Source: an uncultured Collinsella sp.
GTDB lineage: Bacteria > Actinomycetota > Coriobacteriia > Coriobacteriales > Coriobacteriaceae
Length of the DNA stretch: 64,000 nucleotides
Assembly: GCA_934647195.1 (NCBI GenBank)
Contig: CAKUFD010000001.1
Location: 186,001-250,000 of the forward strand
Direction: 5' to 3'
The translations under genes and the position numbers were made by a program. This document shows, in pieces, positions 583-30,630 of this stretch; position 1 is the first letter of the stretch; each line of letters starts with the position of its first letter. Below the pieces are notes generated by a model. It was given only the letters and a program-made list of their open reading frames with translations. It made no database searches and was not told the DNA's origin.

Positions 583-591
583 TTTTCAACA
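583..591 (+). promoter_or_regulatory. DnaA-box-like site TTTTCAACA
   Basis: Nine-base site matching the canonical DnaA box TTATCCACA at 7 of 9 positions. The same 9-mer, in either orientation, occurs at 658-666, 3664-3672, 3746-3754, 28852-28860, 29049-29057 and 29082-29090, all in spacers beside replication genes. Confidence 0.6.
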
Positions 592-657
592 GGTCACGTT
601 GAAAGCGTTGATAACTTTTCGTCGCGTTTTATCACTTTTCATCCATTTGGGAAAAGT

Positions 658-666
658 TGTTGAAAA
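658..666 (-). promoter_or_regulatory. DnaA-box-like site (inverse orientation)
   Basis: TGTTGAAAA on the plus strand, the inverse of TTTTCAACA, 68 bp before the predicted start codon of the ATPase gene that precedes dnaA. Its position would allow DnaA to autoregulate the operon as well as act at the origin. Confidence 0.55.
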
Positions 667-733: not shown

Positions 734-1957
734 ATGTCAGACGATTTCTACCCCTTCGTGGACTCGGGGGATCCGGCACCCGATAACGCCCATCTCACCG
801 GCGACGCGCAACAATCCCATACCCCAAGCCAGGAAGAGGACACGAGCGTAAGCTACGCCACGCGCATTGCCGTCTACGACGATATGTTCTCGACGCCGCG
901 CGTCATCGTCATCTCCCCGCAGGCCACGCGGCCCTACCTCGAAGAAATCACCAACACGGTATATAAGAACATGAAAGAGCAGGGCGGCTCCATCTCGGTG
1001 ATGGTCATTCGCGAAATCGTGGAGAACTTCATCCACGCCCATTTCATGGAGCCGATCATCTCGATCCTCGATGGGGGAAATACGATTCGATTTGCGGACC
1101 AGGGTCCGGGAATCGAGGATAAAGAGCTTGCCTTCGAGTTTGGAATCACATCTGCCGATAGCGACCAAAAGCGTTATATACGCGGTACGGGAGCCGGATT
1201 TCCCCTGGTTCAGCAATACCTTGAAAACGCTGGCGGGATCGTTTCCATCGAGGACAACCTGAATGGCGGGACTGTCGTGACGGTCACGCTCGACCCGTCT
1301 CGCGTAAACGAGATTTCGATGTCTCACACATCGGGAGCGATCAGGGGCGCGGTCCCCCATCCCATGGATGTGCCGGTAAACGGCGCAAACCCGGCTCCAG
1401 CGATGGGTGCCGCTATGATGCCCGCAGCGGGAACACCTCAACAATGGCAGCAGGTGATGCCGCAGCAGCAGGCAGGAGCATGGCAATATCAGATGGCTTG
1501 CGCCCAGCCAGGCATGCAGCCACAATATCAGCAGCCGTACGGCATGCAAGGCGCATACGCTCCGACCCCCTATCCTCAGCAAGGATTCCCTCAACAGGGA
1601 TTTTCCCAGCAGGGATACACCCCGGTGGGATATCCGCAGCCGGGATACCCTGCAATGCCACAGCAAGGCTATCAGCAGACGATGCCCACAATGGGAATGC
1701 CGGCAGCACCCGCAAGCCCGATCTTCGTCACCCCTCGCGGTCAGCAGGCCCTTTCCTTCCTGATGGTCAACACGACCTGCGGGCCCACCGATTTGGGAAA
1801 CGTATTTGGGTCGTCTCCTGCCACATGGTCGCGAGAACTCTCCGGCCTTCAGAAATCAGGCTTTGTCATTAAACACGGTCAAAAATATATGCTCACCGAC
1901 ACCGGCCGAGCATGGATAGAAGAACAGACGCCCCGAGAGGATGTGAACAATGGATAA
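734..1957 (+). CDS. HATPase-domain protein with prion-like linker and C-terminal winged helix, coupled to dnaA
   Basis: A 407-residue protein of unknown function, beginning MSDDFYPFVD. Residues ~85-210 form a GHKL/histidine-kinase-type ATPase fold: N-box ENFIHAH (E97, N98), G1 box ADQGPGI (D122) and G2 box GTGAGFPL (151-158). There is no phosphoacceptor histidine domain or membrane segment, so it is not an ordinary sensor kinase. Residues ~213-324 are a Q/P/G/Y/M-rich low-complexity segment with PQQGF/PQQGY repeats. Residues ~325-400 resemble a MarR-like winged helix ending MLTDTGRAWIEEQ. The stop overlaps the dnaA start by 8 bp, implying translational coupling and a role linked to initiation. 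An in-frame ATG at 680 exists, but it lies inside the origin sequence and has no clear ribosome-binding site. Confidence 0.85.
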   Translation: MSDDFYPFVDSGDPAPDNAHLTGDAQQSHTPSQEEDTSVSYATRIAVYDDMFSTPRVIVISPQATRPYLEEITNTVYKNMKEQGGSISVMVIREIVENFIHAHFMEPIISILDGGNTIRFADQGPGIEDKELAFEFGITSADSDQKRYIRGTGAGFPLVQQYLENAGGIVSIEDNLNGGTVVTVTLDPSRVNEISMSHTSGAIRGAVPHPMDVPVNGANPAPAMGAAMMPAAGTPQQWQQVMPQQQAGAWQYQMACAQPGMQPQYQQPYGMQGAYAPTPYPQQGFPQQGFSQQGYTPVGYPQPGYPAMPQQGYQQTMPTMGMPAAPASPIFVTPRGQQALSFLMVNTTCGPTDLGNVFGSSPATWSRELSGLQKSGFVIKHGQKYMLTDTGRAWIEEQTPREDVNNG

Positions 1958-3659
1958 CGAGGCCCAGATTCTCCTCGACGACATTGTCTCGTTTTGTCAG
2001 CGAGATGGGCTCGACACGCGCCTTATCAACATGCTCGGTCAATCTGTCCCCGTGTCGTTAGATGACGAGTCACTCACCCTGCAGGTTCCCAGCAGGTTCG
2101 CTTCGACCTACCTGCTCAAGCAGCAGGCAACGATAGAGCGCTACCTGGAAGAAATCACCTTTGCACCGCTCGCCCTCAAGGTCGAGGTCCCCGCGATGCC
2201 CACCCCGGGGCAAGCTCAACCCGCAGCACCCCAAGCGCCAGCACCCCAGGTCTCTTCCCAGCCGGCATATTCGCCAGTGATGGCGCCCGCCGTCGAGGAG
2301 ATCCCCGCATCGTCAAAACCGAGTGAAAACCGCAGCTTCGTGGCGCAAGCAAGCGCTTTTTCCGATATACCGATGCCGCACCGAACCAATCGAGATGCAG
2401 ACCCCACGAGCGTCAAGGTCAACAACACGATGACGCCCGAGATGTTCCAGCGCATGATGAGCAACATGAAGCAGCAGGAAAAGACGCCGGTCGCTTCACG
2501 TGAAACCACGCCAGTCGAGGAGTCGCAGCAGGCAAAGGCAATCGAGCCTGCAGCAGGCATCAACTCGAAGTTCACCTTCGACACCTTCGTGCCCGGCGTG
2601 GAGAACAGGCACGCCTATCAATCTGCTCTGCGCTTCACCGCCAGCGTAGAAGTTCCGGGCGAGTGCACATCGCTGTTTATCTACGGAAAATCGGGGCTGG
2701 GAAAAACACACCTGCTGTTTGCCATCAAAAACTTCTTGGCAGTCGATAAACCTGGAATCACGGTTAAGTACGCCAACAGCCAGACATATATCGACGATTT
2801 CATTAACGAGGTTGCCAAGCAGAAAAACGATGGCCACAGCATCCTTCGCGAGTATCACGAAGCCAATGTCTTGATTATCGACGATATCCAAAACATCATC
2901 GGTAAGCAGGCGAGCATCGACTACTTTTTCAGCCTGATGGACGAATACATTCGCGAGAACAAGAAAATCGTCATCGCCGCCGACCGAGCACCGAAAGACC
3001 TCGGTATGGACGAGCGCCTCACGAGCCGCTTTAGCTCCGGTATGCTCTGCCTCATCTCTGAACCCGGCTTCGAGATGAAATATCTCATCTTGCAAAACTA
3101 TTGCAAGCGCATGGCGTCCAACGCGCATGAGCTCCCCGCAGCGGACGTGCCTTCGATCTTCTCCAACTTGCAGATGCACGGGGGACACTTGAGCGAAGAC
3201 CACCTCAAACATATGGCCGAGGTCTCTGGCAATAACATCCGCGAACTCGAGAGCTTCTGCGAGCGCTGTTCCAGCCTCTCTTACGAAAAGGAGCAGGCAG
3301 GAAAGGAACTGACCGCTGAGGACATCGATGCTGTGGCGAACGAGTACTTCGATACAGCACGAAAGGTCATTGCGCCCAAAACCGTGCAATCCGTTGTAGA
3401 GGGCTATTACAACATCAGCCATGAGGACATGATCGGCCGCAAGAGGCAAAAGACAATCGCATTCGCGCGCCATGTTGCCATCTATCTGGTAAACGACATG
3501 TGTGACGTGAAATCCCAGGCAGCCCTCGGCGCGGTATTCGGTCGAGACCACGCCACCATCGTTCACAGCATCAGTGTTGTGGAGGGCAAGCTTCGAGAGG
3601 ATGCTAATTTTGGCGAGGAGCTCGCGCAACTCAAGAACAAGATCATCCTTAAGTCATAA
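1950..3659 (+). CDS. dnaA: Chromosomal replication initiator protein DnaA
   Basis: Initiator ATPase (569 aa) that binds DnaA boxes and melts the origin. Domain I (~1-80) begins MDNEAQILLDDIVSFCQRDG. Domain II (~80-200) is a long Pro/Ala/Gln-rich linker. The AAA+ domain III has Walker A GKSGLGKT (246-253), Walker B VLIIDDIQ and the arginine-finger region DERLTSRFSSG. Domain IV carries the DNA-binding signature FGRDHATIVHSI (R532, D533, H534), close to the usual GRDHTTV form. The ATG lies inside the end of the upstream ATPase gene. DnaA-box-like sites lie on both sides of this two-gene unit. Confidence 0.98.
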   Translation: MDNEAQILLDDIVSFCQRDGLDTRLINMLGQSVPVSLDDESLTLQVPSRFASTYLLKQQATIERYLEEITFAPLALKVEVPAMPTPGQAQPAAPQAPAPQVSSQPAYSPVMAPAVEEIPASSKPSENRSFVAQASAFSDIPMPHRTNRDADPTSVKVNNTMTPEMFQRMMSNMKQQEKTPVASRETTPVEESQQAKAIEPAAGINSKFTFDTFVPGVENRHAYQSALRFTASVEVPGECTSLFIYGKSGLGKTHLLFAIKNFLAVDKPGITVKYANSQTYIDDFINEVAKQKNDGHSILREYHEANVLIIDDIQNIIGKQASIDYFFSLMDEYIRENKKIVIAADRAPKDLGMDERLTSRFSSGMLCLISEPGFEMKYLILQNYCKRMASNAHELPAADVPSIFSNLQMHGGHLSEDHLKHMAEVSGNNIRELESFCERCSSLSYEKEQAGKELTAEDIDAVANEYFDTARKVIAPKTVQSVVEGYYNISHEDMIGRKRQKTIAFARHVAIYLVNDMCDVKSQAALGAVFGRDHATIVHSISVVEGKLREDANFGEELAQLKNKIILKS

Positions 3660-3887
3660 TCGTTGTTGAAAAGTACCGGAAAAGGGGAGGGAAACTTGTC
3701 GGCAACCCACGAACGTGTGTTGAAAGATTTCAGTCCCATGGAAGCTGTTGAAAAGAACAGGTGTTATCAACGGTCGGAAAGCTGAAAAGAAAACACCCTC
3801 CACCTGCATAAACATCAGTAGTCAACTTCTTCCACCGACTTATTACTATTATTAGATTTATCTATATATAGAAGAAAGGTAATAGAG
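3660..3887. other. dnaA-dnaN spacer with DnaA-box-like sites and AT-rich stretch (oriC, downstream half)
   Basis: This 228-bp spacer holds TGTTGAAAA at 3664-3672 and 3746-3754, a one-mismatch copy TGTTGAAAG at 3718-3726 and GTTATCAAC at 3763-3771 (TTATCAAC is one base from the core of the canonical box). From 3840 to 3871 the sequence is nearly pure A/T (TATTACTATTATTAGATTTA and on), a candidate unwinding element. An ACCTGCA motif is at 3802-3808. The dnaN ribosome-binding site (AAAGG) follows. Confidence 0.7.
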
Positions 3888-4988: not shown

Positions 4989-6085
4989 TGAATGTGCTTG
5001 CTCGCGCCCTTTCGGTGCGTAACTACCGCAGCTTCGAGGAGTTCGATGTCGAGCTCGATCCCGATATCACGATTTTCATCGGTCACAACGCGGTGGGGAA
5101 GACCAATCTCATAGAGTCGGTTCAGCTTCTGACGGCGGGGCAGTCGTTTCGCCGTCCAACGGCTTCGCAGCTGGTGCGTAACGGTGAAGGTGCTTGCCGC
5201 ATCGACCTTTCGTTTACCGGTGACGGCCGTCGTGTCGAGCACGCACTTGTTTGCTCTGAGGGCAAGAAGAGCTTCTTTTCCAACGGCAAGCGCACTTCGG
5301 CGGCTGGAATGCGCGGCCTGGTTCCAAGCGTCCTGTTTTGCCCTGACCATCTCGACATGATCAAGCGTGCAGCTTCGTATCGAAGGGCTGCGCTGGACGA
5401 CTTTGGCATTCAGCTCAACGACCGCTATGCTCACCTGGTTTCGTCGTATGCCCGCATCGTCGAGCAGCGCAACAGCTTGCTCAAGGAGTATCCCATTCCT
5501 ATCGACTTGCTGGGGGCATGGGATGAAACACTGGTGCAGACGGGCGCCGCGCTGCTCTCCCATAGGTTGTCTTTGCTCGAACGCATCCGCCTACGTATGG
5601 TGGACGCCTATCGTGCCATCGCGCCGGTCGAGACCCTCGATCTTTCCTATCGCTCGACGGTGGGGAGCATCGATACGTCGACTTCGCGCGCGGAGATAGA
5701 GGGGCTCTTTCGCGATGCTCTGGCCCAGGCTTCCGAGGAGGAGCGCCGCCGCGGCATCACCGTGGTGGGGCCGCATCGCGATGAGATTTCCTTTTTCATC
5801 GACGGTCGCGATGCGCGGGACTTCGCGAGCCAAGGGCAGCAAAGAAGCCTCGTCCTTGCCTGGAAGATAGCCGAGGCGGAGGTGGCGAGCGACATTTTGG
5901 GCAGATATCCCATGCTGCTGCTCGATGACGTGATGAGCGAGCTTGACGCGCGCCGCCGCGAGGCGATAACCGGGTTCGTGCAAGGCGAGATCCAAACGAT
6001 CATCACCACGACGAACTTGGGCTATTTTTCAAAAGATGTCATAGAACGTGCGAAGGTGGTGCATATCGATGGCGAGGAAAAGTGA
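4988..6085 (+). CDS. recF: DNA replication and repair protein RecF
   Basis: SMC-like ATPase (365 aa) that helps load RecA at gaps. Walker A GHNAVGKTN lies near residue 31, the ABC-type signature region is ASQGQQRSLVLAWKIAEA, and Walker B is PMLLLDDVMSELDARRR. It begins MNVLARALSVRNYRSFEEFD, the typical RecF N-terminus. The gene overlaps dnaN by one base and dciA by 17 bp within a compact replication operon. Confidence 0.97.
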   Translation: MNVLARALSVRNYRSFEEFDVELDPDITIFIGHNAVGKTNLIESVQLLTAGQSFRRPTASQLVRNGEGACRIDLSFTGDGRRVEHALVCSEGKKSFFSNGKRTSAAGMRGLVPSVLFCPDHLDMIKRAASYRRAALDDFGIQLNDRYAHLVSSYARIVEQRNSLLKEYPIPIDLLGAWDETLVQTGAALLSHRLSLLERIRLRMVDAYRAIAPVETLDLSYRSTVGSIDTSTSRAEIEGLFRDALAQASEEERRRGITVVGPHRDEISFFIDGRDARDFASQGQQRSLVLAWKIAEAEVASDILGRYPMLLLDDVMSELDARRREAITGFVQGEIQTIITTTNLGYFSKDVIERAKVVHIDGEEK

Positions 6086-6629
6086 TCGCTTTGGCACCAC
6101 GCAGGGACTCGGGAACATTCTTGAACAAGAAAAGCGCCGCATCTATGACGATGCCGCCCCCGCCAAGCGCGAAGCGTTTTTAGAGGCGGAGCGGGCACGA
6201 GAGGTCTACCGTGCCTGGAACACCGTCTGCGCCCGAACGCGCGAGGGCCAACATGTATGCGGCCTGCACTTTGTCCCCGAGACGAGCGAGCTTATCGTGT
6301 ACGTCGACGGTTCCTCGTGGGTCAACGAGCTTACCGTTTTGCGCGAAATCATCCGGGCGCGCATGGAGGCCTGCGGGGTGCGTGTCTCGGCGCTGGTGTT
6401 CAAACTGTCCCGAAAGGGGTATGAGGCGCCGCGCGCGGCCTCTTCTGCTGCGAGCAAGGATAAATCTCCTGCCCACGCGGCGCGGCCTCAAGCCGAGCTT
6501 TCCTCCGCCGACGTCGCTTCCATCGACGCTCGCGTTGCCCATATCAAGGATGAGGGCCTTCAGAGAGCGCTTAAATCTGCGATGGGCGCGGGTCTTTCGC
6601 TAGACAAGAGCCGCAAATCAACGAAATAG
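6069..6629 (+). CDS. dciA: DUF721 / DciA-family protein (predicted helicase loader)
   Basis: A 186-aa protein starting MARKSDRFGTTQGLGNILEQ. Residues ~50-120 match the DUF721/DciA pattern: a Trp (VYRAWNTVCA), a hydrophobic strand LIVYVDGSSWVNEL and a second helix-strand unit ending VSALVFKLS. DciA proteins act in DnaB loading in bacteria lacking DnaC/DnaI. The C-terminal ~60 residues are charged and Ala-rich and look disordered. The start at 6069 lies inside recF; an upstream in-frame ATG at 6048 has no better support. The function is family knowledge, not demonstrated here. Confidence 0.85.
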   Translation: MARKSDRFGTTQGLGNILEQEKRRIYDDAAPAKREAFLEAERAREVYRAWNTVCARTREGQHVCGLHFVPETSELIVYVDGSSWVNELTVLREIIRARMEACGVRVSALVFKLSRKGYEAPRAASSAASKDKSPAHAARPQAELSSADVASIDARVAHIKDEGLQRALKSAMGAGLSLDKSRKSTK

Positions 6630-8873: not shown

Positions 8874-8989
8874 AAAACCCGTATCCGATGTTGAGGGTTG
8901 AACGCCTTTTTCAACAAGTGTTTTTGGAGATGGGTCGATCGAGCAGCTGCATGAATGAACGTAACCACGACCAACCAGGGAGGTAGTAC

Positions 8990-28730: not shown

Positions 28731-29262
28731 TTGGCAAGGATAATAAGATATAACTAATTAATATATAACTTACTATAATGATTTAGCTGCTAACGTTTGA
28801 AAAATGCCCTGGCCTGTGGTCGAGAAATCCACAACGCCACACTTGACCTGCTGTTGAAAAGCTGGAGTAGACCAGTAGGAACGAATGTGACGTTTCCATT
28901 CTTGTATCAAGCGAATGCAAGGCTTCTACCTGCGCATTGTATAAACAACTATCTCTACCTGCGAAAACAATACAACCGGCAAATCAAAAACGGTAAAGTT
29001 CCGGTAAATCGCTGGGTGAAAATGAATAAACGCAGGTCAGCGCTTTATTGTTGAAAACTCAGCAAAAGCGCAGGTGAAAATTGTTGAAAACGTTGATAAC
29101 CGCTATCGCCGCAGGTCAAAGGCGTGCCTTAAAGTTGAACTTGAAACTTGTACGTTGCTTGTACATAAAACGTTTAGGCATGTTTAAACCATGGGAGCCG
29201 CGAAACGCGCTCGCCGTGCCGTACTATTGATACGTTAAGCATCATGAGAAAAAGGAGTGCGC
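28731..29262. other. AT-rich spacer upstream of dnaB with DnaA-box-like and YGCAGGT motifs
   Basis: No gene is supported in this 532-bp stretch. TGTTGAAAA occurs at 28852-28860, 29049-29057 and 29082-29090, the last followed by GTTGATAAC (29092-29100). CGCAGGT or its inverse ACCTGCG occurs at 28928-28934, 28957-28963, 29031-29037, 29069-29075 and 29110-29116. Base composition is well below the window average, and 28741-28785 is almost pure A/T. It may be a DnaA-binding locus controlling dnaB. Confidence 0.65.
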
Positions 29263-30630
29263 ATGGACCTGTCTCTTGCCGAGCGCGGGACGCATCAGGG
29301 CCTTCCCAATAACCCGGACGCAGAGGCAAATGTGCTTTCGGCCATGCTTCTTTCCAGTGAGGTTGTGGAGGAGGCGCTCACCGAGCTTCTGCCCGACGAT
29401 TTTTATCGTCCGATGAACAAGGCGCTGTTCGTGACCATGCACGACATGTACGATCGCAGCTTACCCATCGACTCCATCACCCTCATTGACTACCTCAATT
29501 CCCAGAATAAGCTGCAGGAAGTGGGCGGAGAGGCCTATATCCTCGAGCTCATGGGCCAGACGCTGTCGCTTGTGAACTGGCAGCACCATGCTTCCATCGT
29601 GCGTCGCGACGCCATGCTGCGCGAGATTATCGGCGCTACCAATCAGATCAATCAGCTTGCCTACAACGCTCCGACCGATACCAAAGAGGTTGTCGAGCGT
29701 GCGGAGAGCATGCTGCTGTCCGTGACCGACCGCGAGGTCAAAAATGCATACAAGCCGCTGAATGACTTTTTGATCGAGGCCTTTAACGAGGCAAAAGAGG
29801 TTTGCGAGGCCGGTGGCGTCGCTGCGGGCGTTCCCACGGGTTATCCCAGCCTCGATCGCATGCTCATGGGTCTGCGCGAGGGCCAGCTGGTGATTATCGG
29901 CGCGCGCCCTGCTGTCGGTAAGACGTCGTTCGCACTGAACCTCGCACTCAACGCCGCATCCGAGGGGTATACCGTTGCGTTTTTCTCTCTGGAGATGAGC
30001 GGTAAGGAAATCGCCCAGCGCTTTATCTGCGCTCATGCGCAGGTCAGCATGTCCAATTTCCGTACGGGCAAGATCTCTCCGCAGGAATGGGCGAATATCG
30101 GTCAGGCGGCAGAAGATCTCTCCAGCCTGGATATTTTGATCGATGACACGCCGGGAATTACGGTGACCGAGATTCGCGCCAAGGCGCGCCGCATGCTCCA
30201 CAACAAAGAGAAGGCCATCATCATCCTCGACTACCTGCAGCTGGTAAGCCCTCCCGCGGGTCGTCGTGCCGAGAGCCGTACCGTCGAGGTTTCCGAGATG
30301 TCGCGTGCCCTTAAGATCATGGCCAAGGAGCTTGCCGTCCCAGTCATCTCGCTGTCGCAGCTCTCCCGTGCCGTCGAGTCTCGTACCGGCAAGCGGCCGC
30401 AGCTTTCCGATCTTCGTGAATCGGGCTCCATCGAGCAGGACGCCGACATTGTCATGTTCCTCGACCGCTCGAGCAACGAGCAGGAGGCCGGGCGCGAAGA
30501 CCGTCCGCCCGAGGGCATCACGCGCATCATCGTCGCCAAGAACCGTTCGGGCCCCATTGGCGATGTGGACCTGGTCTTCCTGGCTGCCTCCACTAAGTTT
30601 TATGAGCTTAACGAGCATGCCGAGGAATAG
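29263..30630 (+). CDS. dnaB: Replicative DNA helicase DnaB
   Basis: Hexameric 5'-3' fork helicase, 455 aa. The N-terminal domain begins near PNNPDAEANVLSAMLLSSEV. The RecA-like domain has Walker A ARPAVGKTS (K220), the FFSLEMS motif, Walker B AIIILDYLQL, the LSQLSRAVESRTGKRPQLSD region and the DADIVMFLDR motif. ATG 29263 is 6 nt after AAAGGAG; an in-frame GTG at 29257 is too close to the ribosome-binding site. No intein is present. Its likely loader is DciA at 6069-6629. Confidence 0.97.
   Translation: MDLSLAERGTHQGLPNNPDAEANVLSAMLLSSEVVEEALTELLPDDFYRPMNKALFVTMHDMYDRSLPIDSITLIDYLNSQNKLQEVGGEAYILELMGQTLSLVNWQHHASIVRRDAMLREIIGATNQINQLAYNAPTDTKEVVERAESMLLSVTDREVKNAYKPLNDFLIEAFNEAKEVCEAGGVAAGVPTGYPSLDRMLMGLREGQLVIIGARPAVGKTSFALNLALNAASEGYTVAFFSLEMSGKEIAQRFICAHAQVSMSNFRTGKISPQEWANIGQAAEDLSSLDILIDDTPGITVTEIRAKARRMLHNKEKAIIILDYLQLVSPPAGRRAESRTVEVSEMSRALKIMAKELAVPVISLSQLSRAVESRTGKRPQLSDLRESGSIEQDADIVMFLDRSSNEQEAGREDRPPEGITRIIVAKNRSGPIGDVDLVFLAASTKFYELNEHAEE

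Follow-up and report, generated by a model that had tools for sequence, protein, structure and literature searches.

What does a predicted ATPase fused to a winged helix do immediately upstream of dnaA? The question is raised by a 64,000-nucleotide stretch from an uncultured Collinsella sp. (GenBank assembly GCA_934647195.1, contig CAKUFD010000001.1, positions 186,001 to 250,000), hereafter the window. Its forward-strand gene at 734..1957, identified by open reading frame (ORF) and family searches, encodes a 407-aa protein in which a GHKL ATPase domain is joined by a linker to a C-terminal winged helix-turn-helix (wHTH) domain. As the initial annotation reported, the gene shares 8 bp with dnaA (1950..3659, forward strand). 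We favour the ATG at 734 over an alternative in-frame ATG at 680 because the N-terminal MSDDFYPF is conserved among relatives of the window protein. Genes of this GHKL-wHTH family are kept beside dnaA across a large part of the phylum Actinomycetota, and a predicted ATPase and DNA binder in this position is a concrete, easily tested regulator candidate. On sequence evidence, we regard the protein as a strong candidate for a new regulator of the timing of replication start. The specific working that we prefer, to which we give slightly less than an even chance, is that of a nucleotide-gated regulator, in which ATP binding by the GHKL domain would gate a wHTH that binds DNA near oriC and dnaA.

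The ATP pocket of the family is intact. In the window protein, Pfam matches and conservation place a HATPase_c-type domain at residues ~42-188 (857..1297; all domains on the forward strand), with the Pfam HATPase_c match itself covering residues 90-188 at E=8.9e-12. The N box retains E94, E97, N98 and H101, and alignment with MutL places the Glu of its core, E94..N98 (1013..1027), at i-4; a G1 box, D122-x-G-x-G126 (1097..1111), and a G2 box, G151-x-G-x-G155 (1184..1198), follow. We aligned 167 distinct relatives from genome-contig and class searches, for which 202 of 203 loci yielded a protein and identical ones were merged. Residues N98, H101, D122, G124, G126, G151, G153 and G155 are invariant in all 167 and E94 is conserved in 164, confirming the intact boxes first annotated; the same residues, E94 included, are invariant in 62- and 56-sequence alignments with Rubrobacter-type members.

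The second half of the architecture is also constant. Of 226 distinct proteins, 225 have a wHTH behind the GHKL domain, and the remaining one is interrupted by a run of N (assembly gap); the GHKL domain is followed just by linker and wHTH, with no transducer domain. Pfam and relatives locate the wHTH at residues ~331-397 of the window protein (1724..1924), where Pfam matches are weak and cover ~residues 346-397 (HVO_A0261_N at 5.5e-6, below its cut-off; Crp-type HTH at 0.0043). In the Rubrobacter-type member L236 the domain scores above the Pfam cut-offs for TrmB (33.6 versus 25.6) and IclR (24.8 versus 22). The winged helix of the initial annotation is confirmed, although it resembles TrmB, IclR and ArsR types at least as much as the MarR type named there. 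At the other end of the protein, outside the GHKL domain, the N-terminal peptide DDFYPFVDSGDPAPDN (residues 1-18, 734-790) is strongly kept among the listed Coriobacteriaceae-type relatives and may be a docking motif.

The pocket itself admits other functions. One is that of a remnant of a histidine kinase, in which a CA domain would have lost the DHp and gained an HTH and would work with a separate partner. Among solved structures the best match is the CA domain of a histidine kinase (Sporulation kinase B, 2.1e-10), and in NCBIfam the window protein matches sensor kinases best. However, no conserved His precedes the N box in alignment columns 40-97 of the 167 relatives and HisKA is missing from the Pfam hits of the window protein, so the family has no histidine-kinase dimerisation domain, in agreement with the initial annotation. 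The phosphoacceptor is thus not conserved, the N box carries a catalytic-type Glu as in MutL, and we hold a remnant to be very improbable.

That Glu at i-4 suggests ATP hydrolysis or protein-kinase chemistry in preference to the histidine-kinase type. Another alternative is therefore a protein kinase or anti-factor resembling SpoIIAB/RsbT: the wHTH would serve as a tether, and the GHKL domain would phosphorylate or sequester a partner that might be DnaA. In favour of this alternative, the residue suits catalytic GHKL types in the MutL alignment, profiles match SpoIIAB (E 0.006-0.007) and BCKDK (8e-8), and JGI labels some relatives 'anti-sigma regulatory factor (Ser/Thr protein kinase)'. Source names among the listed matches are otherwise generic, namely ATP-binding protein, histidine kinase, hypothetical protein and HTH domain-containing protein, with ArsR or TrmB family regulator and anti-sigma regulatory factor as further names. 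In contrast, HATPase_c_2 gave no match at the thresholds used in Pfam searches of the window protein and relatives (HATPase_c_3 was also matched by 3 of 18 members of one family alignment). Against NCBIfam spIIAB, whose cut-off is 135 bits, the window protein scored 13.3 and a basal member 17.4, and the interval between rnpA-rpmH and dnaA leaves little space for a sigma/STAS partner gene (wider flanks unscanned). We consider such a kinase or anti-factor improbable, although less so than a histidine-kinase remnant.

Linkage to dnaA was followed in part of the matching genomes, with loci fetched for ~120 genomes in the class sample and 70 loci fetched from the phylum search. In a first set comprising the best 80 of 118 confirmed loci, the gene lies directly upstream of dnaA in 79, and the 80th has an assembly gap. 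Altogether, the gene is present in 272 of 273 loci, the other one, L195, being a neighbouring piece that served as filler; in 257 of the 272, dnaA lies downstream on the same strand. The gene is divergent from dnaA in 2 of the 259 loci with dnaA (L132, L142); in the other 13, dnaA falls off the available stretch, which ends no more than 252 nt from the gene frame in 12 and meets an assembly gap in one. Counted by distinct proteins, dnaA is adjacent in 213 of 226, the other 13 being truncated, 12 at a contig end and 1 at an assembly gap. The 40 loci chosen among phylum-search matches from outside the class sample behave likewise, 35 with dnaA adjacent and 5 ending within 23 nt of the gene. No relocated copy away from dnaA was found among the 226 distinct proteins of the fetched loci, and the constant linkage for which the initial annotation proposed a check thus extends across and beyond the Coriobacteriia.

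Adjacency of this kind could also arise if the gene were a syntenic passenger, that is, a general GHKL-wHTH transcription regulator with targets elsewhere, held in place by the slowly rearranging rnpA-rpmH-dnaA-dnaN-recF-gyrBA cluster. The whole cluster is conserved in most first-set loci, and in 78 of the 80 the gene is flanked by both rnpA-rpmH and dnaA, with 466-891 bp from the rnpA start to the gene. Against a passenger stand rearrangements that keep the pair together: in seven loci (L126, L127, L134, L139, L155, L169 and L182) the gene and dnaA have been inverted as one block with respect to dnaN, and in L132 and L142 the gene alone is inverted yet still sits beside dnaA. Because several of these loci are related, inversion events, probably few, number less than the inverted loci. 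Conservation of the origin cluster accounts for part of the linkage, not for the inverted cases, and together with the lack of any relocated copy this leads us to view a passenger as rather unlikely. The finer geometry of the pair varies: the gene overlaps the first possible dnaA start in 27 of 211 same-strand pairs, and 158 are spaced 0-100 nt, so translational coupling is not a family trait. Stoichiometric production with DnaA, as initially proposed, is unsupported because overlap is rare and because two of the 259 loci have the gene facing away from dnaA.

The family is widespread in the class and patchy in the phylum. Among 296 sampled Coriobacteriia genomes, 270 matched at E<=1e-6; six of these (G032, G040, G098, G108, G112 and G128) had only weak kinase-type matches on re-check, leaving 264 with the family, all at E<=4e-29. 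When 26 of the 32 genomes lacking a family match were tested with DnaA, dnaA was also not found in 16 at E<=1e-15; the other 10 comprised 8 with a complete rnpA-dnaA interval but no family match and 2 that stop at a contig edge. Across the Actinomycetota, a search at E<=1e-10 found matches in 164 of 396 genomes, those in seven being weaker than 1e-20, and the named members beyond the Coriobacteriia are Rubrobacter xylanophilus (P0134) and 'Candidatus Solincola'/Geothermincolia. Where genomes were re-examined, additional matches proved to be ORFs of kinase type or wHTH fragments of the gene already found, and the family appears to be single-copy and inherited vertically. The relative P0302, which carries the label Bathyarchaeia, is probably mis-binned; P0302 aside, no other phylum was named among 80 protein matches of one search, and the genome-by-genome search covered the Actinomycetota alone. 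A defence or phage origin was rejected, since one scan of viral contigs with a family alignment confirmed no relative and PADLOC and PHROGs matches of two tested proteins were partial, covering the ATPase or wHTH region only.

Absence of the gene at the phylum level largely coincides with WhiB in the genomes tested. In an 80-genome test, WhiB (PF02467) was detected in none of the 40 genomes chosen as gene-bearing and in 34 of the 40 gene-less ones, the latter 40 comprising 20 listed as matchless and 20 inferred from absence in the match list. No family-type ORF was present upstream of dnaA in 30 loci of gene-less genomes (one 10.8-bit match, L296), several of which offer less than 1 kb of upstream sequence. 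A DnaA tree of 113 rows sets 35 gene-bearing rows from outside the class sample and 29 WhiB-bearing rows apart from all Coriobacteriia (support 100), and 28 of the 29 WhiB-bearing rows fall in one region beside Geothermincolia-type rows. Within the Coriobacteriia, gene absence is scattered, which needs several events, although 2 of the 10 rows labelled as gene-less are just the contig-edge cases; details of the tree are unsure because of long branches. A broader scenario would make the protein an ancestral GHKL ATP switch of initiation, encoded in the origin with DnaA, which would read ATP, bind origin DNA or DnaA and license or restrain DnaA loading, having arisen early in the Actinomycetota and been lost in the WhiB-bearing branch. 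We rate this scenario as possible though unlikely. If true, it would raise the question of what replaced the GHKL-wHTH protein in that branch, which includes Streptomyces and Mycobacterium.

What surrounds the pair in the window is consistent with an origin. The gene order rpmH/rnpA (reverse strand), GHKL-wHTH gene, dnaA, dnaN, recF, a 193-aa ORF, gyrB and gyrA is that of a Collinsella-like chromosome near the origin, and the closest named relative in the genome-contig search is from Collinsella bouchesdurhonensis (82% identity over residues 1-407). A motif scan located DnaA-box-like sites upstream of the gene, TTTTCAACA at 583..591 (+) and 658..666 (-) and TTATCAACG at 606..614 (-), and a second cluster downstream of dnaA, with TTTTCAACA in the dnaA-dnaN interval at 3664..3672 (-) and again at 3746..3754 (-), and TTATCAACG at 3764..3772 (+). 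A DnaA-trio-like run, TAATAATAGTAATAA, lies at 3840..3854 (-) and is a candidate unwinding element by the trio consensus given in PMC6669920. Because box-like clusters and a trio-like run flank the pair, it looks as if the gene and dnaA lie inside a bipartite origin. Exact TTTTCAACA is found at 8 places in the window, where 0.22 would be expected. Two lie upstream of the gene, two in the dnaA-dnaN interval, one at 8908 and the remaining three upstream of dnaB. Canonical TTATCCACA with at most one mismatch also occurs 8 times, at chance level (7.5 expected). Among loci L001-L080, 44 of 51 dereplicated upstream regions contain TTTTCAACA, as do 21 of 54 dnaA-dnaN intervals; trio-like runs of at least 4 occur in 24 of 54 such intervals (mean in mononucleotide shuffles 0.055) and in none of the 51 upstream regions. 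The C. bouchesdurhonensis genome holds TTTTCAACA 16 times, 4 of them at the gene locus, and the backward-read pattern 7 times.

Several observations accompany these features. The DnaA-box-like motif of the Coriobacteriaceae appears to be TTTTCAACA, not TTATCCACA (window 583-666 and 3664-3772). The HTH of the window DnaA reads RDHATIVHS and many other members have RDHTT, with only a loose correspondence of box and HTH across lineages. Three TTTTCAACA and one TTATCAACG at 28852-29099 lie just upstream of dnaB (29257-30630; Pfam DnaB_C 3.3e-96), and C. bouchesdurhonensis has three identically spaced sites (33 and 197 bp) at a distance of ~22 kb from the gene, which suggests a possible control of dnaB by DnaA. 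The 193-aa ORF between recF and gyrB (6048-6629) has no Pfam match at 1e-5 and stands in what we take to be the expected position of dciA (DUF721).

How, then, might the protein act here? As a nucleotide-gated regulator, its GHKL domain would bind ATP and perhaps hydrolyse it, and ATP binding would alter the conformation or dimer state of the protein. The altered state would in turn gate binding of the winged helix to DNA of the oriC/dnaA region, and such binding could tune dnaA transcription, possibly also DnaA loading, to energy or cell-cycle state.

Several results weigh against this proposal. An inverted DnaA-box pair with a fixed N2 or N3 gap lies upstream in 31 of 68 basal Coriobacteriia, 8 of 10 Rubrobacter-type loci, and 5 of 8 and 9 of 16 in other gene-bearing sets, and is absent from the gene-bearing Coriobacteriaceae (0/34), Atopobiaceae-type (0/17), L114-L133 (0/20) and Geothermincolia-type (0/6) sets; TTTTC-N10-GAAAA, of the same geometry, occurs in 30 of 34 Coriobacteriaceae upstream regions. 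The pair is present as well in 15 of 23 genomes without the gene (and in 1 of 8 gene-less Coriobacteriia genomes), so we rejected it as a gene-specific operator and ascribe it to DnaA. Comparison of upstream regions with and without the gene yielded no operator specific to gene-bearing genomes. Evolutionary rates, compared over 96 dereplicated loci with p-values that treat branches as independent, showed no covariation of the GHKL domain with DnaA (partial r -0.02 to 0.10). Instead, the GHKL domain covaries with DnaN and RecF, which favours a passenger. The wHTH does covary with DnaA (partial r 0.36-0.39, higher than in any of 14 length-matched blocks, which reached at most 0.278), but in a LexA control over 60 shared taxa the LexA wHTH gave 0.329 with DnaA versus 0.324 for the family wHTH. 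Controlling for the LexA wHTH left 0.259 (p 0.005) and the reverse 0.264, and we dropped this covariation as evidence because the unlinked LexA equals it, making it non-specific. The three tests (GHKL covariation, wHTH covariation and operator) hence give no specific support for a direct DnaA or operator tie. Furthermore, some lineages can dispense with the gene, since it is missing from the rpmH-dnaA interval of 8 Coriobacteriia genomes; their intact intervals speak against an essential initiation factor, and the absence of the gene from an otherwise complete cluster again suits a passenger.

The rate analysis also revealed DnaA branches of the Collinsella-type and Atopobiaceae-type clades at ~5.5 times the mean, with the GHKL domain, DnaN and RecF at 0.7-1.9. 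The window DnaA scores below the NCBIfam DnaA cut-off (294.9 versus 343.9).

The linker is the variable part of the family. In the window protein, composition and comparison with other linkers define a low-complexity, lineage-specific Q/P/A/G/M/Y segment at residues 206-329 (1349..1720); the Q/G/Y/P linker first described is present, but at ~124 residues (Q 26, P 24, A 18, G 14, M 12, Y 9 and one charged) it is longer than the ~110 stated. Median linker length is 147.5 aa in the genome-contig set (n=78; mostly Coriobacteriaceae and Atopobiaceae), compared with 36 aa for the 89 proteins from the class search and 23 aa for the 58 from the phylum search. All 78 genome-contig proteins have linkers of at least 63 aa, and 111 of 147 class and phylum proteins have fewer than 50 aa. 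We infer a compact ancestral GHKL-wHTH protein, ~250-300 aa long, in which the Q/P/A/G-rich linker would have expanded later. A condensate or prion-like role, suggested by the initial annotation, was rejected as a general family mechanism, the long linker being restricted to some lineages. Linker length correlates with the length of DnaA domains I-II over all loci (rho 0.75, n=200); within sets rho is 0.14 (L001-L056, n=54), -0.19 (L057-L080, n=24), -0.21 (other classes, n=39) and 0.47 (class-search set, n=77). Because the correlation mostly vanishes within sets, we read it as mainly a clade effect. A short FSTxxQ motif recurs in some linkers of the family.

We found no description of a GHKL-wHTH family in titles and abstracts of the accessible literature, which is weak evidence of novelty with most subscription journals outside that scope; as far as this literature was searched, a GHKL-wHTH protein beside dnaA is previously undescribed. 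One report states that many bacteria, mycobacteria included, encode no identified DnaA regulators (PMC5720831).

Several known systems can be compared with the family. With histidine-kinase CA domains, of which Sporulation kinase B (3d36) is the best solved-structure profile match, it has the N, G1 and G2 motifs in common; unlike them, it lacks DHp and phosphoacceptor His and has the N-box Glu, a C-terminal wHTH and the link to dnaA. SpoIIAB and RsbT are small GHKL proteins with a catalytic-type N box, as in the family, and SpoIIAB gives weak profile matches (1til, 1l0o), whereas the family falls far below the curated cut-off, carries an extra wHTH and has rpmH and dnaA as neighbours. The N box (ELVEN/REIVEN) and G1 of the MutL N-terminal ATPase (5x9y) align with those of the family, but the alignment ends after G1 and no transducer domain is listed, and beyond the N and G1 boxes the family is not MutL/GyrB-like. 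The wHTH recalls TrmB/IclR/ArsR-type regulators, with the difference that it is attached to a GHKL domain and not to a small-molecule sensor. DciA (DUF721; Rv0004) offers a precedent, as a once uncharacterised gene later shown to be active in replication (PMC5720831). It differs in gene, position and fold, and a role of the present family in replication is so far a prediction from sequence. The proposed role at oriC or DnaA is one filled by Soj, SirA, YabA and Hda, none of which, to our knowledge, is a GHKL-wHTH protein; if it holds, we would know of no earlier initiation regulator built on a GHKL domain.
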